Part shown: positions 25,933-42,349 of the stretch, piece after piece
Layout: each line of letters begins with the position of its first letter
Numbering within the stretch: position 1 is the stretch's first letter
Assembly: GCA_025361845.1 (NCBI GenBank)
Contig: JANYJL010000288.1
Location: 1-50,834 of the forward strand
Source: Rhizobacter sp.
GTDB taxonomy: Bacteria > Pseudomonadota > Gammaproteobacteria > Burkholderiales > Burkholderiaceae_C
Length of the DNA stretch: 50,834 nt
Direction: 5' to 3'
Translations under genes and position numbers: made by a program
The notes under the pieces: model-generated
Seen by the model: the letters and a program-made list of their open reading frames with translations, nothing else
Database searches by the model: none
Told to the model about the DNA's origin: nothing

Positions 25933-27048
25933 ATGAACATGATTCAACGTCGCCGCTTCGCGCTGCAGCTTTCTTCCTTGACGCTCGCGCTTGCCGCCAG
26001 TGTCCCCGCCTTCGCGCATGACGAGGCCTCGCTGCGCAGCGGCAAGGTCTTCACCAGCACCAACGGCACGGGCGGCAATGAGCTGCTTGTCTATGCCCCT
26101 GCCCGATCGGGCGAGCTCACGCTCGTGACGCGTGTGGCCACGCAGGGCCAGGGCACCGGCGCCGGGCTCGGCTCGCAAGGGGCCGTCACGCTGAGCGGTG
26201 ATGGTCGCCATGTCTTCGTCGTCAATGCGGCGAGCAACACCGTCTCCACCTTCGCCTTGCGCGGTGCGAATGCCGTGCTCACCTCGGTGGTCGATTCGGG
26301 CGGTTTGCAGCCGATCAGCGTGACCGAGAACGACGGCATGGTCGTCGTGCTCAATGCGGGCGGTGCCGGCAATGTGGCCGGCTTTCGCAACACGAACGGC
26401 GAGTTGCGTTTGATCCACGGCAGCTCGCGCGGCCTGTCTGCGGCCGGGGGCACCGGCCCGGCGCAAGTGGGTTTCGGCGCCGATGGCGATGTGCTCGTCG
26501 TGACCGAAAAAGCGACCAGCCGCATCACGAGCTACAACGTGCGCCGCGACGGCACGATCGGCTCGCCGACCGTCACCGCCTCGTCCGGCTCCACGCCCTT
26601 CGGATTCGCCTTCGACCGGCGCGACCACCTGATCGTCTCCGAGGCCGTGGCCAGCGCCGCCTCGTCCTATCGCTTCGATGATCGTGGCCCGGCGGTGGCG
26701 CATCTGCTGAGTGCCTCGGTGCCGAACACCCAGGCGGCTGCCTGCTGGGTCGTCGTCGCGCCGAACGGGCGTTATGCCTACACGGCCAACGCCGGCACCA
26801 GCTCGCTCAGCAGTTACCGCATCGCACGCGCCGGCACCATCGAATTGGCGAGCGCGGTGGCCGGCAGCACCGGCCTCAACGCCGGTGCGACCGACCTGGC
26901 GGTCACGCCGGACGGCGCCCAGCTCTTCGCCCTCGCACCGCGCAGCTTGCAGATCGTGTCCTTCAAAGTGGGTTACGACGGCAGCCTGACGACGCTCGGC
27001 GTCGGCACCGGTTTGCCGACGGGCAGTGTCGGCCTCGCGGCGAACTGA
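25933..27048 (+). CDS. Exported beta-propeller (lactonase-like) protein
   Basis: A 371-residue protein with a signal peptide ending near PAFAH (residues 1-27), then seven-blade beta-propeller repeats of the lactonase / YncE type: each ends in phrases such as DGRHVFVVNAASNTVSTFAL, GDVLVVTEKATSRITSYNV, NGRYAYTANAGTSSLSSY and DGAQLFALA. A 6-phosphogluconolactonase-like or lectin-like periplasmic role is possible, but the active residues of a true lactonase cannot be confirmed here. ATG 25933 has GGAG nine bases upstream. The Ig-like lipoprotein gene starts three bases after its stop, indicating one operon. Confidence 0.82.
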   Translation: MNMIQRRRFALQLSSLTLALAASVPAFAHDEASLRSGKVFTSTNGTGGNELLVYAPARSGELTLVTRVATQGQGTGAGLGSQGAVTLSGDGRHVFVVNAASNTVSTFALRGANAVLTSVVDSGGLQPISVTENDGMVVVLNAGGAGNVAGFRNTNGELRLIHGSSRGLSAAGGTGPAQVGFGADGDVLVVTEKATSRITSYNVRRDGTIGSPTVTASSGSTPFGFAFDRRDHLIVSEAVASAASSYRFDDRGPAVAHLLSASVPNTQAAACWVVVAPNGRYAYTANAGTSSLSSYRIARAGTIELASAVAGSTGLNAGATDLAVTPDGAQLFALAPRSLQIVSFKVGYDGSLTTLGVGTGLPTGSVGLAAN

Positions 27049-28540: not shown

Positions 28541-29509
28541 ATGTTCAAGAACGCCCTCGTCTACCGCATCACGAATTGGCAGCCCGCCACACCGGCCGAG
28601 CTGGAAGCGCGGCTCGACACCGCGCGCTTCGCCGAGTGCGGCGCCACGCAACAGGAATCGGCCGGCTGGGTCGAGCCGCGCGGCGAGAAGCACGCGGCGC
28701 TGATCGAAAGTGTCGGCGGGCAGTGGATGCTGACGCTCTGCACCGAGACCAAGGCGGTGCCTTCGTCGGTGGTCAAGACGCAGCTCGAATCCCGCCTGGC
28801 CAAGGTCGAGGCCGACACCGGCCGCCGCCCGCGTGGCAAACAGACGAAAGAGATCAAGGAAGCGATCGTGCACGAGCTGCTGCCGCGCGCGTTTCCGAAG
28901 CGTTCGACCACGCCGGTGTGGATCGACCCGCAGGCTCTGCTCGTCATCATCGGCGCGGCGAGCGCGAAGAAGGGTGATGCGATCGCGAGTCGCTTGGTCG
29001 AACTGCTCGGCGGCGGCATCGTGCTGAGCTTGGTGCAGACCGAACAATCGCCCGCGGTGGCAATGGCCGCGTGGCTGCAGTCGAAGGAAGCGCCGGCCGG
29101 CTTCAGCGTCGACCGCGAGTGCGAGCTGAAGCAGCCCGACAGTGAAAAGGCGACGGTGAAATACCTGCGCCACACACTCGAGATCGATGAAGTCGCCGAG
29201 CACATCGCGCAGGGCAAGGTGCCCACGCAACTGGCGATGACGTGGAACGGCCGCGTCTCCTTCGTGCTGACCGACGCGCTGACGCTGAAGAAGATCGCCT
29301 TGCTCGACGTCGTGCTCGAAGGTGCGACGGCGAGCCAGGGCAAGGACGACAAGGGCTTCGATGCCGATGTCGCGATCACCACCGGTGAACTGGGCCGGCT
29401 CGTGGCCGATCTGCTCGACGCGCTGGGCGGCGAACTGCGGCGCGATGGCATCGCGCCGGCAGGCGCTCCCGCTGCGGCGCGTGTGGCCGAGGAAGGCATC
29501 GCGGCCTGA
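28541..29509 (+). CDS. rdgC: Recombination-associated protein RdgC
   Basis: A 322-residue nucleoid-associated protein that forms a ring around DNA and modulates RecA. N-terminal family sequence MFKNALVYRIT is at residues 1-11, followed by GWVEPRGEK, MLTLCTETKAVPSSVVK, and RRPRGKQTKEIKEAI; the C-terminus has LAMTWNGRVSFVL and LKKIALLDVV. Length is slightly above E. coli RdgC (303). ATG 28541 matches the family start. It is divergent from panE, with a 78-bp shared promoter region. Confidence 0.94.
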   Translation: MFKNALVYRITNWQPATPAELEARLDTARFAECGATQQESAGWVEPRGEKHAALIESVGGQWMLTLCTETKAVPSSVVKTQLESRLAKVEADTGRRPRGKQTKEIKEAIVHELLPRAFPKRSTTPVWIDPQALLVIIGAASAKKGDAIASRLVELLGGGIVLSLVQTEQSPAVAMAAWLQSKEAPAGFSVDRECELKQPDSEKATVKYLRHTLEIDEVAEHIAQGKVPTQLAMTWNGRVSFVLTDALTLKKIALLDVVLEGATASQGKDDKGFDADVAITTGELGRLVADLLDALGGELRRDGIAPAGAPAAARVAEEGIAA

Positions 29510-29531: not shown

Positions 29532-29816
29532 TCACTTCGCCGCCAGGCAGCTCAGCACGAACTGGTGGCGTGCGTCGCCAATGAGGTTCTGGTCATTGGC
29601 CTGTCGCTGGCAGGCGCCCATCGAGGTGCTGCGCTGCTTCGATTCGCGCACTGCGGCGCGCGAATCGATGGCCGACGCGGCCGGTGCCGGTGCGCTCGCC
29701 GCGGGTGCGGGCTTCTTCGCACCGGCCTTGCCTTGCGGCTTGGCGTCGGCGGCCAGGGCGGCCAGCGGAAGGGCGAGACAGGCCAGGAGGATCAGGTGCT
29801 TTTTCATGGTGTTCAT
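29532..29816 (-). CDS. PsiF-like small periplasmic protein
   Basis: A 94-residue protein (91 if ATG 29807 is used) with a signal peptide (MKKHLILLACLALPLAALAA), a Lys/Ala/Pro-rich linker and a C-terminal PsiF-type repeat: MGACQRQANDQNLIGDARHQFVLSCLAAK, with the pattern C-x(n)-A-x(n)-L-x-G-x-x-R-x-x-F-x-x-x-C-L. E. coli PsiF is induced by phosphate starvation; function is unknown. The two Cys could form a disulfide. It is the last gene of the run downstream of the SCO1-like gene, with 50 bp between. Confidence 0.75.
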   Translation of the reverse strand: MNTMKKHLILLACLALPLAALAADAKPQGKAGAKKPAPAASAPAPAASAIDSRAAVRESKQRSTSMGACQRQANDQNLIGDARHQFVLSCLAAK

Positions 29817-29866
29817 TTCGATCGGATTGCAGGGTTGACGTCGGGGAAGCGTGGCGGTGGTGCCGG

Positions 29867-30493
29867 TCAGGGCAGACCCGCCGTGGTGATGCGGATGGCC
29901 GCCGGGTGCACGAGCTTCTGGTACTCGCCCAGCAGGGCCGTCGGGCTGTAGAAGCCGTCCAGGCGCACCCAGGGCTTGCCGGGAGCGGCACGCAGGTAGG
30001 TGGTGGGCTGGTGGTTCATCTTGTCGCCGCGCCAGGCATCGAAGGCCCGCTGCAGCTCGACCATGTCGGCGCTCGTGCCGGTGTAGTGCGCCCACACGCC
30101 GGCGCTGCCGTAGCGGCGCGCATAGGCCGTGAGCGTGGCTGGCGTGTCCTGGTCCGCGTCGATCGAGATCGACACCATGTTGATGCCGTCACGTTCGGAG
30201 CCGATCTTCTCGCGGAACTCGACGAACACCTGGCTCGTCACCGGGCAGATCGCATTGCACGAGGTGTAGATGAAGTTCAGCAGCACCGGGCGACCGTCGT
30301 CGATGGCCTCGGCCAGCGCGACTCGCTTGCCGTCTGCCCGCGTGAGCTTCAGTGCCGGCAGCGTGTAGTTGCGTTCGCTGCGGGTGAGCGCTGCGCCCGC
30401 GGCGTGGTTCTCGTGCGCGTGCACCAAGGGGCCGATGCCGAGCGTGAGGGCAAGCGTCGCCAGCAGCGTGGCGGCGGCATGTCGGGTTGTCAT
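29867..30493 (-). CDS. SCO1/SenC-family copper chaperone, periplasmic
   Basis: A 208-residue thioredoxin-fold protein with a signal peptide (TLLATLALTLGIGPLVHAH). The copper ligands are Cys-Cys in TSCNAICPVT (CxxxC) and the later His in DKMNHQPTTY, the standard SCO set. SCO proteins deliver copper to cytochrome oxidase CuA or other copper enzymes. ATG 30493 is used because GGAG lies eight bases upstream; a TTG five codons earlier is in frame. It sits 39 bp after the cytochrome gene in the operon that begins with a multicopper oxidase, which suggests it loads copper into that oxidase. Confidence 0.9.
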   Translation of the reverse strand: MTTRHAAATLLATLALTLGIGPLVHAHENHAAGAALTRSERNYTLPALKLTRADGKRVALAEAIDDGRPVLLNFIYTSCNAICPVTSQVFVEFREKIGSERDGINMVSISIDADQDTPATLTAYARRYGSAGVWAHYTGTSADMVELQRAFDAWRGDKMNHQPTTYLRAAPGKPWVRLDGFYSPTALLGEYQKLVHPAAIRITTAGLP

Positions 30494-30532
30494 GTTCGTG
30501 GTCTCCAAAGATGAGGCTCGGGGTGGCGAGGC

Positions 30533-32605
30533 TCAGGGAATGATCCAGTCCGATTCAGCCTGCAGTGCGCTGCCCGTCGCACCGCTGAAGCGCACGATGT
30601 AGGCGCCCTTGCTGGCGTGCCGCTGGAACTGGCCGAGGCTCAGCCGCGGGTAGACGTTGGTGCTCTGCGGGGCCCCGCTGTTGCGTGCGGTGGCCGAATC
30701 CGCGACGGCTTCGATCGCGTCGGCGGTGTCTTGTGCGCTGGCCGCTGCCGCGACGGCGGGGCGAGGCACGGCGCGCGGGATGATCCTGCGTTGGGACATC
30801 TCGCGCAGCGGTTTCACGCTGGCGTCGATGAGGTTGCTCTTGGGCAGCGAGAGGTCGCGCGCCTCGTCTTCGGCTTTCGCCGCCTCGCGCAGGCTGAGCA
30901 TGTTCTCGCCACGTTCGAGCAGGTAGTCGCGGTGCACGTTGTCGAGCATGTCGACCAGCGTGTCGTTCAGGTAGTTCAGCGAGAAATACACCTCCGATTG
31001 CAGCAGCTCGTCCTCGAGCGGCAGGTGGCGGATGCGCAGGAACTCGCGGAACACCGTCATGCCGCGCTGGCGCAGCGCCGGCATCTGGTAGGGGTAGACC
31101 ATGCGCGCTGCGGCCCGCCAGTCGGTGGCCAGTGGCAACTTGTCGCCACCGCCAAGCGACGCCGAGAAGAAGACCTTCGCTTTTGGCACCGGCAGCCGCT
31201 GCACGGCCTGCACCTGTGCCGGCGTGAGCCAGAACACCACGCTGTCGGCGGCGCCCAGGCTGGCGAGTTGCCGGCCCAATGCAGACGTGTCGGCGCCGAG
31301 CTTGAACTCGCTGAGCTTCAACGGCCCGCGGGCGAGCTGGTGGCGCAGGCCCGCCACCGCGCTGGCGGCCACGCCGTCGTCCGCATAGACCTGCAGCAGG
31401 CGACTCGGCTTCACCGGGGTGTCCGATTCGGGCACGAGGTGGCGTGCCAGTACGTCCGCTTCGAGCCCGGCGCCGCGCGAGAAGTAGACGCTGTAGAAGC
31501 CGCTGGCACTTTCCTCCGGTACCGCGCCCACACTTGGGAACCAGCACGGTACGGCGCGCTGCTCGCAAAACGCATGCACCGGCGCCCACTCGGCCGTGCC
31601 CAGGCCGGAGGCGATCGCGAACACCGGCTTCGCCGCTTGCAGGCGCTCGAGCTGCGCCTGCCAGGTCGAAGCCGGCCCGTGCAGTTCCCAGACCTGCATG
31701 TCCCACATCCGGTCGGTCTGCAACACCATCTCGGCGCCGCTGGACATGGTGCGCTGGCCGTGCACCAGGTTGCCGTTCTTCTGCGCGACGATGCTGTTCA
31801 GGGTGTCGAGGAAGATGCGCTTGCGCTCGGGGTCCACATCCGGCGTGATGACCGTGGCCAGGCTCACCTGCTTGTCGGCCACCCCGGGCGACCACTCGTT
31901 CGACAGGTGGCGCAGGTAGCTCGCGAGTGCCAGCACGTCGGCATCGCTCAGGTCGTAGCGCGGCATCAGGGGGTCGAAGCCGCGGCCGCTCTCGTGGCGG
32001 CCGGCACGCAGCGCCAGTGCCAGCCCCTCCAGCGTGTAGGGCTCGTGCCGCTGGTTGAAACTCTTGCGGGCGCGCAGGTTCATGTTGACGACGGCGCGGC
32101 GGTCCTGGTCGAACAGGTAGCGGCCGGTGATCGGTGCGATCTGGTTCGGGCCCTCGACGGCGCCCAGCCCGCTGCGCCGATGGCATAGCACGCAGGCCGC
32201 GGCCGCACCGGCCATGCGCACCTGGCCGTCGAGCCGCGTGCCGACCAGCGGCTGGCCGTCGCCACGCAGACCGTCGAGGTAGAGGCGGCGGCCCAGTTCG
32301 ACGAGTCGCGGCTCGTCCGAGAGCGTCGGCGAGGCCTCGGTCCCTGGCGTCGCCAGGGCGGTGTCGGTGCGCCAGATGCGCGCCGACGTGCGCTGGCGTG
32401 ACTCGCGCGCCAGCTGGTTGGCGCTCGGTGCCGAGATGCCGGGTTGCTGCGCCACGGGCGTGGCCTCGTCGGCGTGCGCCCGCGTTGCTCCCAGCGCCAG
32501 CACCACCCCCCAGGCCAGGAGCCTTGCCGCCACTGCGACGCGCCGGCCCGTCAACGGGCGCGCCACGGCAGCGGCAGGGGCCAGGGGGGCGGTACGGTCA
32601 CGCAC
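30533..32605 (-). CDS. mofC: Cytochrome c / periplasmic-binding-protein fusion, MofC-like
   Basis: A 690-residue exported protein. A signal-like hydrophobic stretch ([20 protein letters not shown]) is followed by a class I cytochrome c domain with one heme site CVLCH at about residue 137 and a distal Met candidate in PLMPRYDLS. From about residue 270 the sequence resembles type I periplasmic binding (Leu/Ile/Val-binding-like) proteins, e.g. [24 protein letters not shown] 32605 is chosen: GAGG lies five bases before it and it is 17 bp after the FKBP stop. Leptothrix discophora mofABC encodes an oxidase, a peptidyl-prolyl isomerase and a c-type cytochrome in this order, so this is named as MofC-like. 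An electron-transfer role is inferred. Confidence 0.75.
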
Positions 32606-32622
32606 AGTCGCCTCGGGATGTG

Positions 32623-33333
32623 TCAGTTGACGACGGCGACGAGGTCGACGTTGAACACCAGGGTCTCGTTCGGTCCGATATCGCCGGCGCCGCGGGGGCC
32701 ATAGGCCATCGAGGTGGGGACCACGATTTCCCAGGTCGAACCCGCCGGCATGTGCTTGAGCGCTTCGCGCCAGCCGGTGATGACGTTCTCGAGCTTCATC
32801 GTCGCCGTCTTGCCTTCCGGCGTGGCGTCGAACTCGGTGCCGTCGACGAGCGTGCCACGGTACTTGACGACCACGGTGCCCAGGTCGCCGGGCTTGTCGC
32901 CCTTGCCTTCCTTGATCACGCGGTACATCAGGTTGCCGGGCAGCACCGTCACGCCGGGCTTGGCCTTGTACTCGGCCTGGAAGATGACGCCGCGTTCGCG
33001 ATTGAGGCTGCCCTTGACCTGGCGCTCGTTGCTCATCTTCTTGGCGATGTCGGCCGACATCGACTGCAGCACGATCTTGAGCTCCTTCTCGGGCATGCGG
33101 ATGTCGCCGCCGGCCAGCCCGTCGCGCAGGCCCTGCACGATCAGCTCGATGTCGAAGGGCACGTCGTTCTTGGTCAGCTGGCGGGCCGTCATCACGCCGG
33201 TGGCGTAGCTCATCTTGTCCTTGAGCGTGGCCAGCGGTGCGGGTTCGACGGCCCAGGCCGGCGCCGTCAGCGCCGCGGCGAGCGCGGCAGCCACTGCGAC
33301 CCGGTGGGTCGGCTTGAACTTGAAGATGTTCAT
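32623..33333 (-). CDS. mofB: Exported FKBP-type peptidyl-prolyl isomerase, MofB-like
   Basis: A 236-residue FkpA/Mip-type isomerase. A signal peptide ([17 protein letters not shown]) is followed by a helical dimerisation domain ([19 protein letters not shown]...[13 protein letters not shown]) and a C-terminal FKBP domain: [66 protein letters not shown]. All pocket residues (Tyr, Asp, Trp, Tyr) look present. It acts as a periplasmic folding factor. Coupled between the oxidase and cytochrome genes it probably helps fold the large oxidase; L. discophora MofB is the same class of protein. Confidence 0.85.
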
Positions 33334-33384
33334 TTGAAATGTTCCTGAAGGGTTGTAGCGGTCGAGGCGGTAGTTGCCGTGCGG

Positions 33385-33420
33385 GGGTACCGAAGAACCG
33401 TTGAGGATTCTTCGGCACCC
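33385..33420 (-). terminator. Long hairpin between mofA and mofB
   Basis: GGGTACCGAAGAACC (33385-33399) pairs with GGATTCTTCGGCACCC (33405-33420) over about 13-14 bp with two G-T or mismatch positions and a 5-base loop. It lies 14 bp after the mofA stop and 50 bp before mofB. No T-run follows, so it more likely stabilises the mofA 3' end or partly terminates, lowering mofB and mofC relative to mofA. Confidence 0.65.
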
Positions 33421-33433
33421 GGGCGGTGCGGCA

Positions 33434-36400
33434 TCAGTTCACGACCACGTTGGTCGGCGTGTAGGCCGAACTGCCTGCGGTTCCATTCGCACGCACCTGG
33501 TAGACATATGGCGTGGCGCTGCGCAGCACGTTGGCCTGGGTGAAGGTCAATGCGGTGGTGTTGGCCACCACCGTGCTGACGACGCCGAGCGGCGAGATGC
33601 GCTGCACGGTGTAGCTGGTCGCGCCAGCAACCGCCGCCCAGTTCAGCACCACGGTGGCGCGGGTCGCCGATGTGGTGGTCACTGCGGCAGTGAGCGGTGC
33701 CGGTGCGGCAGGTGCCACGAACGGGACACTGACAGTGGCCGAGGCTGGCGACACGACAGCACCGTTCACGGCTGTCACGTAGAAGGTGTACGTGTTGCCC
33801 AACACCAGCGGTGTGGTCGCGCCGTTGTTGTTGTTGAAGGTCACCGCGCCCCCCGTGGCCGTGGCCTGCGCTGCCGTCCGCGTGACCGTGCCGATCTGCA
33901 CTGCCGCGGCGCCGTTGTCCGAACGCCAGACCGCGAAGCTCGCTTCAGCCGAGGTCGTGTCGACCCAGTTGAGCGTGATGCGCGTGGCGCTCGCGATGCT
34001 GGCCGTGAGGCCGCTCGGCGCGCTGAGGAAGTAGTCGATCTTCACGACGTTGGACGGCGGCGAGTTCGAGATCACCGTGCCTGTGACGTTTTGCGCCATC
34101 ACCCGGTAGAAGTAGCTCACGCCGAGTGAGACCGCGGTGTCGTTGAAGGTGCGTGTCAGGCCCGTGCTGCCGGTGCGCGGTGCGGCCGTTCCGACCTGGC
34201 TGAAGTTCACGCCATCGGTCGAGCGTTCGATGATGAAGGCGGTCTCGTTGGTGGCCGCATCGGTCCAGGTCAGCGAGATGCGGCCCAGGGTGAAGGAGAC
34301 GACGGCGCCGAGGCCCGTCGGTGCAATCACGACCACGCCGCCCGGCGTCTTCACCGTTGCCGTCACCGTGTTCGACAGCGTCGGGTTGGTGCCGTTGGTG
34401 CCTGTCACGCGGTAGGCGTAGGTGGTGTTCGCCGCCACCGCGGTGTCCGCATAGCTCGTCGCTGGGGCATTCACCGTGACCGCCGGCAGCCACACCGACG
34501 AGGCCGCCGTGCAGTTGAAGTTGGCCGCGGTAGCGGTGCAGCGTTCGACCAGGTAGCTGGTGGCCGGCACGCCGCCGGACCACGTCACCGTCACCTGCGT
34601 GGCCGTCGCGTTCGAGACCGCAGCCAAGCCGGTCAGGGTGCCCGCGGCGGCGTAGGGCGTGGTCACGCTGGTCGACGATGTCGCACCGGCCACCGGCGTC
34701 AGGCCGTTGGCGTTCACCGCATTCACCGTGTAGGTGTAGGCGGTGTTCTGCAGCGCACCGGTGTCGATGAAGCTCGTGGCATTGGCCGCTGCGCTGAAAC
34801 TGGCTGCCCCAGCGCCGCCGCTGCGGACGATGTTGTAGCCGGTGACGGTCTGGGCGCGCACCAGGGCAGCCGGCGTCCAGGCCAGCGTCACCTGCGTCGG
34901 CGAGTTGGCCGTCGCCGACAGGCTGGCCAGCGCCGGGGCGCCGAGTGTGTAGGCCGAGGCCGACACCAAGGCCGAGGAGCCGACGGCGTTGACCGCGTTG
35001 AGCTGGTAGCTCACCAGCGTGTCGGCGGGCAGGCCGGTGTCGGTGTAGCCCACCGTGTTCAGGGCCAGGTTGAAGGTGCTCGTGACGCCGTTCACCGTGC
35101 GCTGCAGCACGAAGCCGGTCTCGTTCAGCGCGGTGTCGGTCCAGCTCAGCGTGACCTGCGAGCCGGACTGTGCCAGTGCCGCGAGGTTGGTCGGTGCCGA
35201 CGGCGGGCCCACGGTCAGCGGCGTGGTCACGATGCCGGATTCACCGACACCGTTGGCACCCACGGCCACGACCTTGTAGGCCATCGAGGTTCCGCCGCTC
35301 GCGTTCGTCACGCCGGTGGCGGTCGCATCGAAATAGGCATTGGCGTTCGCCAGCGCCGTGCCGACGGCCGTGAATGTGCCCAGCGTGATGTTGTCCGGCA
35401 GCACGTCGGCGCGCATCACGTCGAACTTGTATTCGGTGGCTGCGTTGTCAATCCAGCTCAGCGGCACACCGGTGGGCGTGCTGGTGGTGGCGGCCAGGGT
35501 CGGCGCGAGCGGCGCCGCCTCATTGGCACGGAAGGCGATCGGCCGCATGAAGTCGTTCTCCTCGTGGCCGAGGATGTGGCAGTGCCACACGTACTCCCAC
35601 CCGAAGTCCGTCATCGCGTTGGTCATCGTGGCCGGCGCGCCGGTGTACGGGTCGATCTGGGTGAAGCCGGTCATCGCGCCTTCAGGCTGGCTCGGGTCGA
35701 GCAGGCGCACGCTGTTGGGCAAGCCGAAGCCCGGCAGCTTGGGCTTCTTGGCGCGCACGGCGACGATCACGTCCTCCAGCGGGCTCATCTTGATGGTTTC
35801 CTTCCATCCGAGCTCGTTGGGTTCCGGCGGGCTGACGAAGTTGTCCCAGCCCACGCGGTTGATCAGCTGCACGTTGACCAGGTGGAAGTGGATCGGGTGC
35901 GTGTCCACGCCGTTGTGCGTGATCTTCCAGATCTGCGTCTCGCCGTCGGCAATCTCTTCGGTCGGCGCATCCACGTAGCCCAGCGGAATGGTGGTCTGCG
36001 TGAGGGCGCTGTTGTACGGAATCTCCGTGCCGAAGGTGGCGTTCAGGCGGCCGTAGGTCGGGTCGAACAGTTCCTGGATGGCCTTGGTCTTGACCAGGTA
36101 GCTGGCGGTCGGCTTGGTCGGGTTGATCGTCGTGTCGGCCGCGGCCGTGGCAGCAACGATGCTGGCCGGGGCGGGCTCGGTGGCCGCCGGCAGGATGGTG
36201 GCCACCGGAGGCAGGGTGTAGCCGCTGCCGGGATTGCTCAGGGTCACGTCGAAGACGCGGCCCGTGGCACCCGCGGTCGGCGCGGTACCGCCGGCGGGCG
36301 GCGCGGTGAAGGTGATCAGCAGGCCCGGTGCCGGATTGGCCGGCTCGGAGGCCGCGGTGCTCAGGTCGGTGTAGCCGCCGCCGCCCGCCGAAAGCGGGTT

Positions 36401-39400
36401 GGTCGGGTCGGGCAAGACCATCGAGATGGCATCGAGGCTGCCGGTGCTGGTGGCCTTGGCCACCACGAGCGTCTTGCCAGCCACCGGCGTGCCGGTGATC
36501 GTGACCGTCGGCGCCACGGCGTAGCCGCTGCCGGGGTTGGTGATGGTGATGCCGGTGACGGTGCCGGCGGTGAGGGTCACCGTGCCGGTGGCGGTGTTCG
36601 CAGCGCCCTTCGGCGAGGCCTGGAAGATCACGTTGGCCGTCGCGTAGTTGGCGCCCGGGTTGATGATCTTGATACCGGTGGCCTTCAGCGAGGTGTTGGC
36701 CGTGACACCGCTGCCCTGGCCCACCGCGGTGACGGTGATGATCGGTGCCGTGGCGTAGCCGGAGCCGCTGTTGATGATGTTGAACTTGTCGATCTTGAGC
36801 GTGGCCTTGGCCGTCGCGCCAGCGCCCGTGGTGTCACCGGCCGCAGGGCTGATGACGACGGACGGGGTGCGGGTGTAGCCGCTGCCCTGGCTCGTCACGA
36901 GGATGCCGTTGAAGGCCGCGTTCGGCGTGCCGGGAACGAACTCGAACGAGGGCGCCTTGATGGAGCCGTTGAACACCGAGGCGAAGGCCTTGGTGTCGTT
37001 CCAGGCGGTGCCGAGGGCACCGTTGTAAGCCGACTGGGCCACCACCGGCGGCTCTTGCGCCACCTTGTAGGCGGCCTTGAGGGTGGTGTCGAGCGCGACG
37101 AAGGGCGCGTCGGTGCGCTGGGTGGCACCGCCGTTGGGACCGACGCTCTCGATCGGCGCAATGCTGGGCGTGGTCACCGTGCCGGAGGCACTCACCACGA
37201 TCTGCATCATCGTGCGGGTGTTGGGGCCGTAGCCTGGGCGCGTGTCTTCGGCACCGCCGGTGGCCGAGTTGTCACCGTAGCCGGTGAAGTACTCGTTGCG
37301 CGGGTCGGCCGCAGGCACCGGGGCCCCGGCGTCGTTGTAGACGATCAGCGTCTTGCCGGCGTACTTGGAGAAGTCCACGATGATGTCCGCACGCTCGGCG
37401 TTGCCGATGTGCAGGCCGGAGGTGCTGAAGTCGGTGTTCAGCACCGCGGCGCGGCCCTTGTCGAGCAGGTAGCTGACGGGGGTCGCATCCTTGATGGCCA
37501 CACCGGGCAGCAGGCCGCCTTCGTTGCCGATCTGGAAGATCGTCGGGCCCTGCGTGGTCGGGTCCGGCACGCCGCCGTTGTGGCCGTAGATGTCGGTGGT
37601 CCAGATGTCGGGCACGCAGGTGCCGTCGCTCTTGGTCACGCCGGCCGCGCACACGGTGCTGGTCATGGCCCAGTTCTGCACCGGCACCATCTTGACCTCG
37701 GTGTTCTGCATCAACGCGCCGGTCGGGTTGCCGGCGGCATCCAGCACGGGGGCTTGCACGGCGCTGTCGGCGACGAACATGTTGAACGTCATCGTGCGGT
37801 CGTTCGATGCGTTCAGGATCTTGAAACGGTAGGGCTTGGGTTCGACCGTCAGCGTCGGGTAGGCGACGCCGTTCACGATCGGCGTGTCCATCCAGGCTTC
37901 CGGCGTCAGCGTCACGTCACCGTAGGCACCGGAGGGCAGGTTGTAGGCGGACGGGTACGACGGCCAGAACCACGGGCCCCAGTGCCAGCGACCGACCGAG
38001 TTGAAGGAGGTCGCCTGGTTGGGGTCTTGCACCGTCTCGTAGACGTGCGGGTACCACAGGTCGCCGGGTTCGCCCCAGGCCTTGGTGTCCCAGCGCGCGT
38101 CCTGCAGCAGGATGTCGTCGGGGACGAAGGTCTTCTCCTGCAGGATCAGTGGAATGGTGGCGTCGGCGCCGGGGATGACCTTGTCGGCGATCAGCTTCTG
38201 CTCGGTCGCGTCGGTCAGCAGGTAGGCCGAGGCCAGGCCGGCGTAGGCGTTCAGGCGCGTCATGCCGACCGTGTGGTCGTGGTACCACTCCATGCGGGCT
38301 GATTGGCCGTTGGGGAAGTAGTAGGTCATCGCGCCCGGGCCCGGGTCGTTCATGTCGGGCACGTTGAGCGCGCCGGGGCCGCGCAGGAAACCCGGCACCA
38401 GGCTTGGGTCGAGCGGCATGCCTTCCGGGCTGCCGCTGGCAATCGTGCCGGCCATGCCCGGATCGTTCTCGCCGATCGGCGCGATCCAGGTGTGGGGGCC
38501 GCCGTCGCTGATCCAGGGTGTATCGCCGCCGTGCAGGTGGATGTTGGTGCGGTTCTGCGTGTAGGTGTGCATGCCGTCCGGACCGAAGCCGGAGCCGGGC
38601 ACCGAAGGATCCAGCGGCAGGAAGATGTCGCCGTTTCGGGCAGTGACCGTGGCCACCGGCTTGGCGACCCAGGTGTTCGTGGCCGTGGCGGGATCGAACA
38701 CGAGTTCGGGGATGGTCGTGGTGCTGGTGAGGGCACGGCCGGCCGGCAGCAGGTTGTGGAACTTGACGCGGGTGGGTGCGCCGGCCAGGCCCATCGCGAC
38801 GGAGATGGCATTGGTGCTGGTGGCCTGGATGATCGGCCCGAGGTAGTGTGGGTTGTCGACCGCCTTGGCCTGGACCTTGATGTAGGCGCCGGTGCCGTCG
38901 ACCAGCAGCTTGCCAGTGGCGTCGGCCTTGTTGACCAGGATGGGCGTGACGCCATCGAGGAAGAACAGCGGCACGGCCTTGCTGATCCAGCCGACCGGCG
39001 CCGTGAGCCCGTGGGTGGCGAACTGGTCGATCTGCACGTAGCCGCGCAGCGTGGTGGCCTTCTTCAGGTCGGAGTGGAACTTCTCGCGGTACTCGACCGA
39101 GGCGATCTCGTAGTAGTCGTCGGTGCTGGCCGTGCCGTCGGGCTTGACCCACTTGGCGGGCACGGCCACCGGGATGTACTTCTGGGTGACGCCGTCCGAC
39201 AGGGTTTGCAACTTGCCCGGCAGCGGCAGCGGATCGACGAACTTGCGAAGCGCCTGGCCGGTGCCGGGGTAGCCGCCGGGGTAGAGCTTGGCAACGCCGG
39301 CGGCGTATGCGGCCTGGTTGAGCGGGTCGTAGCCTGCCGGTGCGCCGGTGGCCGGATCCCACAGGCGTGCGCCCGACGGGCTGCTCGCGAAGTAGGACTG

Positions 39401-39538
39401 CACGATGAACGGCTTGTTGTTCAGGTCGTAGGCGTCACCGAAGCCGGGGCCGGCGAACGCATCGCGCCCGGGGGCCATGCTGGCGGTGGCGATCATGACG
39501 GCGGCCGTCACACGATTGAGCTTGAAGTTGCTGCGCAT
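33434..39538 (-). CDS. mofA: Giant multicopper oxidase with GSGY repeats and seven FnIII domains, MofA-like
   Basis: A 2034-residue exported protein. A signal-like N-terminus is followed by cupredoxin domains containing all four copper motifs: NIHLHGG (about residue 333), WYHDH (about 416), HPIHFH (about 1213) and WHCHILGHEENDFM (about 1315), so T1 and the T2/T3 trinuclear site look intact. Residues about 875-1110, between the second and third motif pairs, hold at least five GSGYxxxP-type repeats. Residues 1340-2034 hold seven fibronectin III domains. L. discophora MofA (about 1660 residues) is a candidate manganese oxidase; this protein has the same neighbours but is longer. ATG 39538 is preceded by AGGGAA. 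Mn(II) oxidation is inferred from synteny, not shown. Confidence 0.85.
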   Translation of the reverse strand: MRSNFKLNRVTAAVMIATASMAPGRDAFAGPGFGDAYDLNNKPFIVQSYFASSPSGARLWDPATGAPAGYDPLNQAAYAAGVAKLYPGGYPGTGQALRKFVDPLPLPGKLQTLSDGVTQKYIPVAVPAKWVKPDGTASTDDYYEIASVEYREKFHSDLKKATTLRGYVQIDQFATHGLTAPVGWISKAVPLFFLDGVTPILVNKADATGKLLVDGTGAYIKVQAKAVDNPHYLGPIIQATSTNAISVAMGLAGAPTRVKFHNLLPAGRALTSTTTIPELVFDPATATNTWVAKPVATVTARNGDIFLPLDPSVPGSGFGPDGMHTYTQNRTNIHLHGGDTPWISDGGPHTWIAPIGENDPGMAGTIASGSPEGMPLDPSLVPGFLRGPGALNVPDMNDPGPGAMTYYFPNGQSARMEWYHDHTVGMTRLNAYAGLASAYLLTDATEQKLIADKVIPGADATIPLILQEKTFVPDDILLQDARWDTKAWGEPGDLWYPHVYETVQDPNQATSFNSVGRWHWGPWFWPSYPSAYNLPSGAYGDVTLTPEAWMDTPIVNGVAYPTLTVEPKPYRFKILNASNDRTMTFNMFVADSAVQAPVLDAAGNPTGALMQNTEVKMVPVQNWAMTSTVCAAGVTKSDGTCVPDIWTTDIYGHNGGVPDPTTQGPTIFQIGNEGGLLPGVAIKDATPVSYLLDKGRAAVLNTDFSTSGLHIGNAERADIIVDFSKYAGKTLIVYNDAGAPVPAADPRNEYFTGYGDNSATGGAEDTRPGYGPNTRTMMQIVVSASGTVTTPSIAPIESVGPNGGATQRTDAPFVALDTTLKAAYKVAQEPPVVAQSAYNGALGTAWNDTKAFASVFNGSIKAPSFEFVPGTPNAAFNGILVTSQGSGYTRTPSVVISPAAGDTTGAGATAKATLKIDKFNIINSGSGYATAPIITVTAVGQGSGVTANTSLKATGIKIINPGANYATANVIFQASPKGAANTATGTVTLTAGTVTGITITNPGSGYAVAPTVTITGTPVAGKTLVVAKATSTGSLDAISMVLPDPTNPLSAGGGGYTDLSTAASEPANPAPGLLITFTAPPAGGTAPTAGATGRVFDVTLSNPGSGYTLPPVATILPAATEPAPASIVAATAAADTTINPTKPTASYLVKTKAIQELFDPTYGRLNATFGTEIPYNSALTQTTIPLGYVDAPTEEIADGETQIWKITHNGVDTHPIHFHLVNVQLINRVGWDNFVSPPEPNELGWKETIKMSPLEDVIVAVRAKKPKLPGFGLPNSVRLLDPSQPEGAMTGFTQIDPYTGAPATMTNAMTDFGWEYVWHCHILGHEENDFMRPIAFRANEAAPLAPTLAATTSTPTGVPLSWIDNAATEYKFDVMRADVLPDNITLGTFTAVGTALANANAYFDATATGVTNASGGTSMAYKVVAVGANGVGESGIVTTPLTVGPPSAPTNLAALAQSGSQVTLSWTDTALNETGFVLQRTVNGVTSTFNLALNTVGYTDTGLPADTLVSYQLNAVNAVGSSALVSASAYTLGAPALASLSATANSPTQVTLAWTPAALVRAQTVTGYNIVRSGGAGAASFSAAANATSFIDTGALQNTAYTYTVNAVNANGLTPVAGATSSTSVTTPYAAAGTLTGLAAVSNATATQVTVTWSGGVPATSYLVERCTATAANFNCTAASSVWLPAVTVNAPATSYADTAVAANTTYAYRVTGTNGTNPTLSNTVTATVKTPGGVVVIAPTGLGAVVSFTLGRISLTWTDAATNETAFIIERSTDGVNFSQVGTAAPRTGSTGLTRTFNDTAVSLGVSYFYRVMAQNVTGTVISNSPPSNVVKIDYFLSAPSGLTASIASATRITLNWVDTTSAEASFAVWRSDNGAAAVQIGTVTRTAAQATATGGAVTFNNNNGATTPLVLGNTYTFYVTAVNGAVVSPASATVSVPFVAPAAPAPLTAAVTTTSATRATVVLNWAAVAGATSYTVQRISPLGVVSTVVANTTALTFTQANVLRSATPYVYQVRANGTAGSSAYTPTNVVVN

Positions 39539-39948
39539 GGGTGTTCCCTGGTTGGCGGGTGGTGTCAGATTCGCGACGTGAAGGGGTGGGCTGGTGTGTC
39601 GACCGGCGTGCTCGCGGGTGTCGCGAGGCGCCCCGAAAGGCCCCGGCGCGGCACCCCCCGACCGGGTTTTGAAACTCCGGTCTGGGGTATGGTGTTGATT
39701 AACCTGCTCACGATTCGAAGTTTGTTCGAAGGGGTGAGTGGCGTATATATTTCGCACCCCCTGAGTCGCGGGGAGGAAAGGTCCCATTCCCATGGGTATG
39801 TCCACACCGGTGATTCGGCTGGAGTATTTCGATTATTTAAGCTCGGCTCGCCCTGGAAATCGCGCCGAGGCTCGCCTTCTTCCTCGTGAGGGCCATGTCG
39901 GATGCCCCGGATGGTGTGCCCGAAAGGTGGGTGGGTGAACCCTGCAAA
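39539..39948. promoter_or_regulatory. mofA upstream region
   Basis: The first 410 bp of the 658-bp gap before mofA. A TTCGAAG direct repeat with 11-bp period occurs at 39714-39720 and 39725-39731 (the second copy flanked by GGGGTG), and TATATA at 39744-39749 could be a -10 element for the minus strand. GGGGTG (39731-39736) and CACCCC (39755-39760) bracket it. GC content drops sharply compared with genes. No gene is seen here. Confidence 0.5.
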
Positions 39949-40089
39949 GTTAATTCAGATTAATATGAAAATTTGACGACAGATGAGCGAACATTAATTT
40001 ATATTAACGGCTTCGTCAGCGCGCTTTCGGGTATCCGGCGATTAATGGAAATTAATGCTGAATGCTGGTTTAACGAATATTAATATTCG
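39949..40089. promoter_or_regulatory. Array of paired TTAA boxes, 10-bp phase
   Basis: Four TTAA-N6-TTAA pairs occur with TTAA starting at 39950/39960, 39994/40004, 40042/40052 and 40070/40080. The last lies in a perfect 16-bp palindrome CGAATATTAATATTCG (40074-40089). Half-sites exactly one helical turn apart, in the same orientation, are typical of OmpR-family regulator sites. The array lies between mofA and a gene for such a regulator, so it may control either. H-NS-like binding to AT-rich DNA is an alternative. Confidence 0.6.
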
Positions 40090-40115: not shown

Positions 40116-40132
40116 TTTAAGGTGGCCTTAAG
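40116..40132 (+). promoter_or_regulatory. PmrA/QseB-type box upstream of the two-component genes
   Basis: TTTAAG-GTGGC-CTTAAG (6-N5-6) is the canonical direct-repeat box of PmrA/QseB-type regulators. It ends 64 bp before the regulator start. It fits autoregulation of the downstream regulator-kinase operon. Confidence 0.65.
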
Positions 40133-40196: not shown

Positions 40197-40907
40197 ATGC
40201 GTTTGTTGTTGGTCGAAGACGATGAGATGCTCGGTCAGGCCACCTCCGATGCCTTGCAGGGTGCGGGGCAAAGCCTCGACTGGGTACGCAACTGCATGGA
40301 CGCACGCGCGGCCGCCCGGCTGCATGAATACGACGCCATCCTGCTCGACCTGGGCCTGCCCGACATGCCGGGCGAAGAGTTGATGAAGCAGCTGCGCAGC
40401 GCACGCTCGAACACACCCATCATCGTGCTCACCGCGCGCAGCCAGGTCGAGGACCGCGTCACCCTGCTCGACCTCGGCGCCGACGACTACCTCGTCAAAC
40501 CCTTCGACATCAACGAACTGCGTGCGCGCCTGCGCGCGGTGAAGCGGCGTACCTCGGGCAACAACGATGCCTCCGACGTGCAGAAGGTCGGTCCGCTCGA
40601 ACTCTTCCAGGCCTCGCGCACGGCACGCTGGAAGGGCCGCCAAGTCAACCTCACCGGCAAGGAATTCGACGTGCTCGAAACCCTGTTGATGCGCCGCCCG
40701 CGGGTCGTCAGCCGGGCCCAGCTTGAAGAGGTGCTGTACGGCTGGGGCGACGAGGTCGAGAGCAATGCGATCGAGGTCTACATCCACTTCCTGCGGCGCA
40801 AGTTCACGCCCGCGCTGATCGTCACGGTGCGTGGCAAGGGCTACCAGATCGGCAGCGAGGAAATCCTCCAAGCCGCTGTGGCGCCGCCCCCGCTGGGCGC
40901 AGGCTGA
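40197..40907 (+). CDS. OmpR-family response regulator, QseB/PmrA-like
   Basis: A 236-residue regulator. The receiver domain has acidic residues EDDE (7-10), Asp51 as phospho-acceptor in AILLDLGLPDMPG, VLTAR and Lys in LVKPFDINEL. The winged-helix C-terminus reads LTGKEFDVLETLLMRRPRVVSRAQLEEVLYG, then VYIHFLRRKF and VRGKGYQIG. Its style (MRLLLVEDDEMLGQAT) is close to QseB/PmrA. ATG 40197 is used; a GTG three bases earlier is in frame. It starts three bases before the kinase gene and follows a matching PmrA-type box, so autoregulation is likely. It is divergent from the mof operon and could control it. Confidence 0.92.
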   Translation: MRLLLVEDDEMLGQATSDALQGAGQSLDWVRNCMDARAAARLHEYDAILLDLGLPDMPGEELMKQLRSARSNTPIIVLTARSQVEDRVTLLDLGADDYLVKPFDINELRARLRAVKRRTSGNNDASDVQKVGPLELFQASRTARWKGRQVNLTGKEFDVLETLLMRRPRVVSRAQLEEVLYGWGDEVESNAIEVYIHFLRRKFTPALIVTVRGKGYQIGSEEILQAAVAPPPLGAG

Positions 40908-40909
40908 AG

Positions 40910-42349
40910 ATGGGGCGGGCGCACATGGCCCGGCGCTGGTCGCTGCAGTCGCTGCTGGTGGCACTGGCGGTGCTCGTCACGCTGATCGCGTGGGTCGCCG
41001 GGGGTTCGCTGGTCTGGCGGGTCGCCGAGCAGCATGCCCAGGAGTTTCACGACGGCCAGTTGCGTCACATGGCGCACATGCTGCTCGGGCTGAGCGGCCA
41101 TGAACTCATCGAGATCGGCGACAGCACGCCCATGGAGGCGCGCATTGCCAACGGGCAAGCGGATGGCAAGGAGACGCTCGGCGACGACTACCGCTATCAG
41201 CTCTGGAAGTCCGAAGGGCGGCTGCTGCTCACCAACTTCGGCCTGCCCTCCGCCGCTGCGATGGCGCCGCTGGGCCGCAGCGGCTACAGCTGGCTCAACA
41301 TGGATGGCGAACGTTGGCGCGTCTATTCGCTGATCGACTCCGATCTGGCACAGGAACTCCAGGTCGCCGAGCGCGCGGCCGTACGCGGCTGGCTGGCGGG
41401 CAGCATCGACGCGAAACTGCTCGGGCTGATGGCCTTGTCGCTGCTGGCGGTGCTGTTGCCGACCCTCTTCCTGCTGCGCTTGCTGCTCGGGCCGCTGCGC
41501 CACCTGGCGCAACAGCTCGGCATGCGCTCGGCCACCAACCTCACCCGGCTCGAGGTGCCCGGCGCACCGACCGAGTTGCTGCCCATCGTGGCCGCCACCA
41601 ACGACCTGTTCCGCCACATGGCCGACGCGATGCAGCGTGAGCGCAGCTTCACCTCGTTGGCCGCACACGAACTGCGCACGCCGCTGGCGGCACTGCGCCT
41701 GCAGGCCCAGGTGGCGGCCGGCACCGAGAACGATGCTGTGCGCGCGCGCAACCTGCGCGATCTGGTGCGCAGCGCCGACCGCTGTGCCCACTTGCAAGAC
41801 CAGTTGCTCACGCTGGCCCGGCTCGACGCCGCCAAACCCGCCGACCTGAACGAGATCCTGAACATGACCGAGGTCGTGATGGAGGCGGTGGCCGAGATCG
41901 CGGCCGATGCCCGCCGCCGGCATGTGCGCCTGGCCACCCGCAGCGACGGCGTGGCGATGCACGGCCACCCCTTCGGCGTGCGCACGCTGATCCGCAACCT
42001 GGTCAGCAACGCGGCGCGCCATGCGCCCGAACAGGGCCGTGTCGAAGTGCATGTCGAGGCCGATGGCGACGACGTGCGTGTGCGTGTCGAAGATTCGGGC
42101 GCCGGCATCCCGGTGGCCTTGCGCGAGCGTGCCTTCGAACGTTTCGAGCGCTTGAACGCCGTGCCCAGCGATGGTGTCGGCCTCGGCCTGTCGATCGTGC
42201 GCGCGGTGGCCGATGCGCATGCGGCCGAGGTGTCGCTCGGCGACTCCGCGCTCGGCGGCCTGGCCGTGGTCGTGCTGTTCCGCGGCCGCAAGGCCGACGT
42301 GCTGGCGATGGCGGACGACGATGCGGCTGCGCTCGCCGTGCCCGGCTGA
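40910..42349 (+). CDS. Sensor histidine kinase, QseC/PmrB-like
   Basis: A 479-residue membrane kinase. Transmembrane helix 1 is near residues 14-37, a periplasmic domain of about 130 residues follows, helix 2 is around 167-190 (LLGLMALSLLAVLLPTLFLLRLLLGPL), then a HAMP-like linker, HisKA with LAAHELRTPLAALRL (His about residue 253), and an ATPase domain with NLVSNAARHAP, DSGAGIP and GVGLGLSIV. The start ATG 40910 is two bases past the regulator stop; ATG 40925 is possible. QseC/PmrB kinases sense iron, aluminium, polymyxin or hormone-like signals; the ligand here is unknown. Given the neighbouring oxidase, a metal signal is a fair guess. Confidence 0.92.
   Translation: MGRAHMARRWSLQSLLVALAVLVTLIAWVAGGSLVWRVAEQHAQEFHDGQLRHMAHMLLGLSGHELIEIGDSTPMEARIANGQADGKETLGDDYRYQLWKSEGRLLLTNFGLPSAAAMAPLGRSGYSWLNMDGERWRVYSLIDSDLAQELQVAERAAVRGWLAGSIDAKLLGLMALSLLAVLLPTLFLLRLLLGPLRHLAQQLGMRSATNLTRLEVPGAPTELLPIVAATNDLFRHMADAMQRERSFTSLAAHELRTPLAALRLQAQVAAGTENDAVRARNLRDLVRSADRCAHLQDQLLTLARLDAAKPADLNEILNMTEVVMEAVAEIAADARRRHVRLATRSDGVAMHGHPFGVRTLIRNLVSNAARHAPEQGRVEVHVEADGDDVRVRVEDSGAGIPVALRERAFERFERLNAVPSDGVGLGLSIVRAVADAHAAEVSLGDSALGGLAVVVLFRGRKADVLAMADDDAAALAVPG

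Follow-up and report, generated by a model that had tools for sequence, protein, structure and literature searches.

In Leptothrix discophora SS-1, the mofABC genes encode an oxidase (MofA, 1661 aa), an FKBP isomerase and a cytochrome c in this order, and neither SCO nor PsiF genes have been reported for this locus. The Mn(II) oxidiser Rubrivivax sp. A210, a burkholderial relative of the organism studied here, carries a five-gene mof operon (RA210_u30246-u30250) in which mofA, mofB and mofC are accompanied by genes for a copper metallochaperone and a small exported protein; that paper makes no mention of adjacent genes for regulators or secretion (PMC8218464). The ompB cluster of Geobacter sulfurreducens contains a MofA homologue with Fn3, a mofC homologue and an SCO chaperone, and SCO next to mofC was noted both in FeOB and in Geobacter ompB clusters (PMC5566968). 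Recent papers continue to regard as unclear what part MofA plays in the oxidation of Mn(II) or Fe(II) (PMC11412304; PMC13386937). Its substrate is disputed, and neither the export of MofA nor the switching on of its gene is addressed in the mof literature that we found.

Here, we describe a mof operon of Rhizobacter sp. within a window of 50,834 nt, which is the whole stretch of DNA analysed (assembly GCA_025361845.1, contig JANYJL010000288.1, positions 1 to 50,834, forward strand). What looks new in this locus is a divergent pair of regulator and kinase genes which faces mofA across a repeat array that is unique in the assembly.

A five-gene mof operon in Rhizobacter sp.

Five genes on the minus strand form one unit, with intergenic gaps of 100, 17, 39 and 59 nt from mofA to the PsiF-like gene:

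33434..39538, minus strand: mofA-like gene, multicopper oxidase of 2034 aa (translation, Pfam, motif scan, alignment, profile match)
32623..33333, minus strand: mofB-like gene, FKBP-type peptidyl-prolyl isomerase of 236 aa with a signal-like N terminus (Pfam, identity to relatives)
30533..32605, minus strand: mofC-like gene, cytochrome c protein of 690 aa, GTG start (Pfam, family alignment, AlphaFold, Foldseek)
29867..30493, minus strand: SCO1/SenC copper chaperone of 208 aa (Pfam, motif, alignment with Bacillus Sco 1xzo)
29532..29807, minus strand: small exported PsiF-like protein of 91 aa (Pfam, same-place homologues)

The convergent rdgC gene (28541-29509) ends 22 nt past the operon, and a two-component system diverges from its head. 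Translations and Pfam family matches bore out the coordinates and order of the five genes in the original prediction, and the succession oxidase - FKBP - cytochrome c, which had been read as mofABC, holds with an oxidase that was assigned to the MofA-type family. This arrangement is far beyond chance, because every gene matches its own family and the order recurs in other genomes. The predicted extension by SCO and PsiF-like genes is likewise present; it is not novel, as the A210 gene set is published and an SCO gene lies beside mofC at 29 of the 34 mofC loci, one of which (L027) breaks off inside mofC. The five-gene set recurs at the loci L028 and L029 and, interrupted by contig breaks, in G298, a genome from another genus of the family. 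From the A210 set and the frequency of the SCO neighbour, the SCO/PsiF-extended form is taken to be the normal form of the mof operon. By its gene content, the locus is a genuine mof operon and a fresh example of an operon type already described, and the Rhizobacter strain is a fair candidate for a metal oxidiser, with Mn(II) as a putative substrate.

A Lactonase-type beta-propeller gene is located 2.5 kb from the operon (window 25933-27048, plus strand). The mnxG operon of P. putida GB-1 also lists a beta-propeller lactonase-family gene; the proximity in Rhizobacter may be a coincidence, because two housekeeping genes intervene.

The oxidase

A motif scan of MofA identified the copper motifs HLH (334), HDH (420), HPIHFH (1214) and HCHILGHEENDFM (1319), and the alignment revealed that all 11 copper ligands, ten histidines and one cysteine, are kept. 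Motifs A and B are thus N-terminal and motifs C and D C-terminal, each with every ligand, which is the order of the four copper motifs of L. discophora MofA. An insert with GSGY-type repeats (about residues 876-1145) separates the two motif pairs, and an Fn3 tail (about 1346-2034) forms the C-terminal third of the protein, whose 2034 aa compare, by published description, with 1661 aa in strain SS-1. Pfam assigned Cu-oxidase_2 (2e-9) and fn3 domains. The core is about 70% identical to those of three mof-operon orthologues, with which it was grouped in the tree at a support of 100/100; the AlphaFold model of this core (pLDDT 34) was unusable.

The solved structures closest by sequence are CotA laccases, with CotA as the top profile match (E=1.6e-44), and bilirubin oxidases, and CotA is a laccase-type enzyme which also shows Mn oxidase activity (PMC3618234). 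A broad laccase-like oxidase for phenols or copper tolerance, with no dedicated role in metal oxidation, is nevertheless an improbable description of the protein, as its size, the Fn3 tail, the inserted repeats and the mofB, mofC and SCO partners are atypical of laccases. The motif order A, B / C, D also equals that of MofA, although this order is common to CotA and MoxA.

That the oxidase works mainly on Fe(II) or, in the manner of OmpB, in extracellular electron transfer instead of Mn(II) oxidation is a tentative possibility. The MofA homologue OmpB of Geobacter is needed for Fe(III) oxide reduction and has mofC and SCO neighbours (PMC5566968), and in iron-rich mats of L. ochracea, mofA ranks with the most highly expressed genes (PMC11412304). 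The ompB cluster differs from the locus described here in that it is without a mofB homologue and tied to Fe(III) reduction. Against this possibility, strain A210, which shares the five-gene set, is a Mn(II) oxidiser (PMC8218464), although mofA is there no more than a candidate cause.

The accessory proteins

MofB matched the Pfam families FKBP_C (1e-21) and FKBP_N (2e-17) and is 70-72% identical to the products of mofB at L027, L028 and L029. MofC has one heme site (CVLCH at 138; Cytochrom_C, 1.4e-5); its cytochrome c part is joined in one chain with a type-1 periplasmic-binding domain and, at the C terminus, a conserved tail. This fusion of cytochrome and periplasmic-binding domains was previously noted by He et al. 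(PMC5566968). The heme site and Met214 are invariant across the MofC family of 18-19 members, and the AlphaFold model (pLDDT 74.7) led in Foldseek to Leu/Ile/Val-type binding proteins. The SCO protein (SCO1-SenC, 2e-17) has its CxxxC motif (CNAICP) and the distal histidine (NHQPTTYL) in alignment with Bacillus Sco 1xzo. For the 91-aa protein, PsiF is a weak label: a single PsiF repeat (E=1.8e-4) exceeded the Pfam cut-off narrowly with 21.7 bits vs 21, and the NCBIfam cut-off for the PsiF equivalog was not reached. Homologues of its gene occupy the same place at L028, L029 and L040.

Distribution in relatives and copper-less paralogues

A shorter piece of MofA was used as survey query along with MofC. 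Genes for MofA are rare, with matches to this query in three of 400 other genomes of the family and a contig-end fragment in G298, and mofC was found in 18 of 401 family genomes, host included. The neighbouring genus g79 has tandem mofA copies, among which one clade is without 8-10 of the 11 copper ligands according to the ligand alignment, while its genes are full length and open:

L030:13158-16457, L031:4404-9374, L032:1569-4946 and L087:14167-17568: copper-less MofA paralogues of genus g79

These paralogues adjoin intact mofA copies at least at L031 and L087, and in the tree they form a monophyletic, fully supported clade which spans three species. By analogy to pairs of enzyme and pseudoenzyme, we guess that the copper-less paralogue may be a structural partner.

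Linkage to secretion genes

In two genomes, G418 and G419, mofA is preceded at a distance of about 150 nt by the end of an operon for type II secretion, which encodes GspG, GspF, GspE, a secretin and pseudopilins, and at L027 pseudopilin genes and a gene for a LuxR-type regulator precede mofA. Gsp-type genes are found near 11 of the 34 mofC loci, and GspE/F/G or secretin genes near other mofC-SCO loci, including the paralogous locus of the host. At this locus (L036; G000:C55:1-12331), a second mofC-SCO pair stands beside genes for a secretin, a pseudopilin and a LuxR-type regulator; the scanned copper motifs were not found in its large Ig-like protein. A GspE (56% identity) is encoded on another contig of the host. 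Secretion genes are not adjacent to the mof operon in the Rhizobacter window. According to the titles of the respective references, P. putida GB-1 employs a Gsp-related pathway for its Mn-oxidising factor, and Geobacter OmpB is secreted by an atypical type II system. The linkage in relatives suggests a type II route for the export of MofA.

The large MCO-like proteins of other islands were considered as MnxG, and this assignment was dropped because HCHxxxH and HxxHxH are absent save one stray HxxHxH, and the largest protein gave no more than weak Cu-oxidase matches.

A divergent two-component system faces mofA

Upstream of mofA, the following features were identified:

40197..40907, plus strand: OmpR-family response regulator, divergent from mofA (best models PmrA, then QseB)
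40910..42349, plus strand: QseC-like sensor histidine kinase with a 2CSK_N sensor domain (profile models, orthologue in G298)
39949..40084, no strand assigned: four TTAAY-N5-TTAAY repeats with a half-site period of 10 bp, between regulator and mofA
40116..40132, plus strand: exact PmrA-box match YTTAAK-N5-YTTAAK, about 65 nt before the start codon of the regulator

The pair resembles PmrAB/QseBC in these best-matching models and in its one exact PmrA box. It differs in scores far below the equivalog cut-offs (for the regulator 194.5 bits vs 330 for the NCBIfam PmrA equivalog), in the 10-bp repeat period and in its apparent target, an oxidase operon. A regulator (65% identical) and a kinase (52-53% identical) again face mofA in G298 (locus L086), which was the sole genome with a close orthologue of the kinase among 400 other family genomes (490 bits, next best 268). 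Seven of the 12 other genomes with the best kinase matches fall among the 17 of 400 that have mofC (hypergeometric P=4e-8, calculated for related and hence not independent genomes at a chosen match threshold), and several of the next-best kinases adjoin secretion or MCO-like genes.

Most of the 14 sensor domains compared (window 40973-41400, L118-L129) share an ExxE motif at an equivalent position. The motif recalls those that bind iron; as it was counted without a control, sensing of Fe(III) is kept as no more than a lead.

The repeats are located at 39950, 39994, 40042 and 40070. All seven strand-wise exact matches to TTAAY-N5-TTAAY in the 4.5-Mb host assembly fall within the array, the reversed pattern used as control gave five matches in the whole assembly, and no such array was found in 100 shuffles of the window. 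The box at 40116-40132 is the sole exact match in the window to the PmrA-box consensus, which was taken from PMC10729948, and matches were absent from 100 shuffles. The half-sites of the four main repeats have a period of 10 bp vs 11 bp in the published PmrA box. In 55 related loci (0.9 Mb pooled; not independent of each other, and some of them fetched because they bear the kinase), exact PmrA boxes were counted seven times at N5 and once at the other tested spacings, and control cores of the same composition gave 0 to 3 matches per spacing. The boxes stand before type II secretion, regulator and SCO genes. Among 29 TTAA pairs 5 to 18 bp apart in these loci, 18 have a distance of 10 or 11 bp, and ten of the 12 that lie 11 bp apart are followed by gspG, regulator, LuxR-regulator, mofA or SCO genes.

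Broad conservation of the array was rejected: the strict form with four repeats is particular to the Rhizobacter host genome, as it is absent at L086, where the AT-rich island alone is retained, and before other regulators. This island, located about 500 nt before mofA, recurs at L086 and L027. Between the array and mofA lies a leader of about 400 nt (window 39550-39900), and a search for a riboswitch in it gave no Rfam match.

It may be argued that the two-component system regulates itself alone or unrelated genes, and that its proximity to mofA is incidental. The array might act solely on the promoter of the regulator, and some mofA genes do without the system: regulator pair and repeats are both absent beside mofA at L084, at L085 and in genus g79, and the divergent two-component system is missing at L027 as well. 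We consider this explanation unlikely in view of the identical divergent layout in a second genus, the otherwise missing kinase orthologue, the uniqueness of the TTAA array in the host assembly and the secretion and MCO-like genes next to related kinases.

Proposed function and significance

We rather favour the reading that this mof operon serves a giant multicopper oxidase which is secreted, and that it is under the control of the divergent PmrA/QseB-like two-component system. MofA would be exported to the periplasm, where MofB probably aids its folding as a chaperone and the SCO protein probably loads it with copper. For MofC, with its cytochrome c and binding domain, electron transfer or the sensing of a ligand is the probable task, and a type II system would secrete MofA. 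The two-component system probably controls both the mof operon and its own regulator gene by binding to the TTAA array. The chances appear evenly balanced that this PmrA/QseB-like subfamily is, beyond Rhizobacter, the dedicated switch of a wider type of Burkholderiales island, which would combine extracellular multicopper oxidases, MofC-SCO and a type II secretion system of its own under TTAA boxes; in the Rhizobacter window, the switch would control mof.

With a regulator adjacent to a compact, assembly-unique operator candidate and with the secretion linkage in relatives, the switching on and the export of MofA become accessible to gene-removal and reporter tests. The recurrent MofC-SCO pair points to a copper-loading and electron-transfer module shared by several large extracellular oxidases, and the regulator with its array provides a testable idea of how metal-oxidising islands may be switched on.
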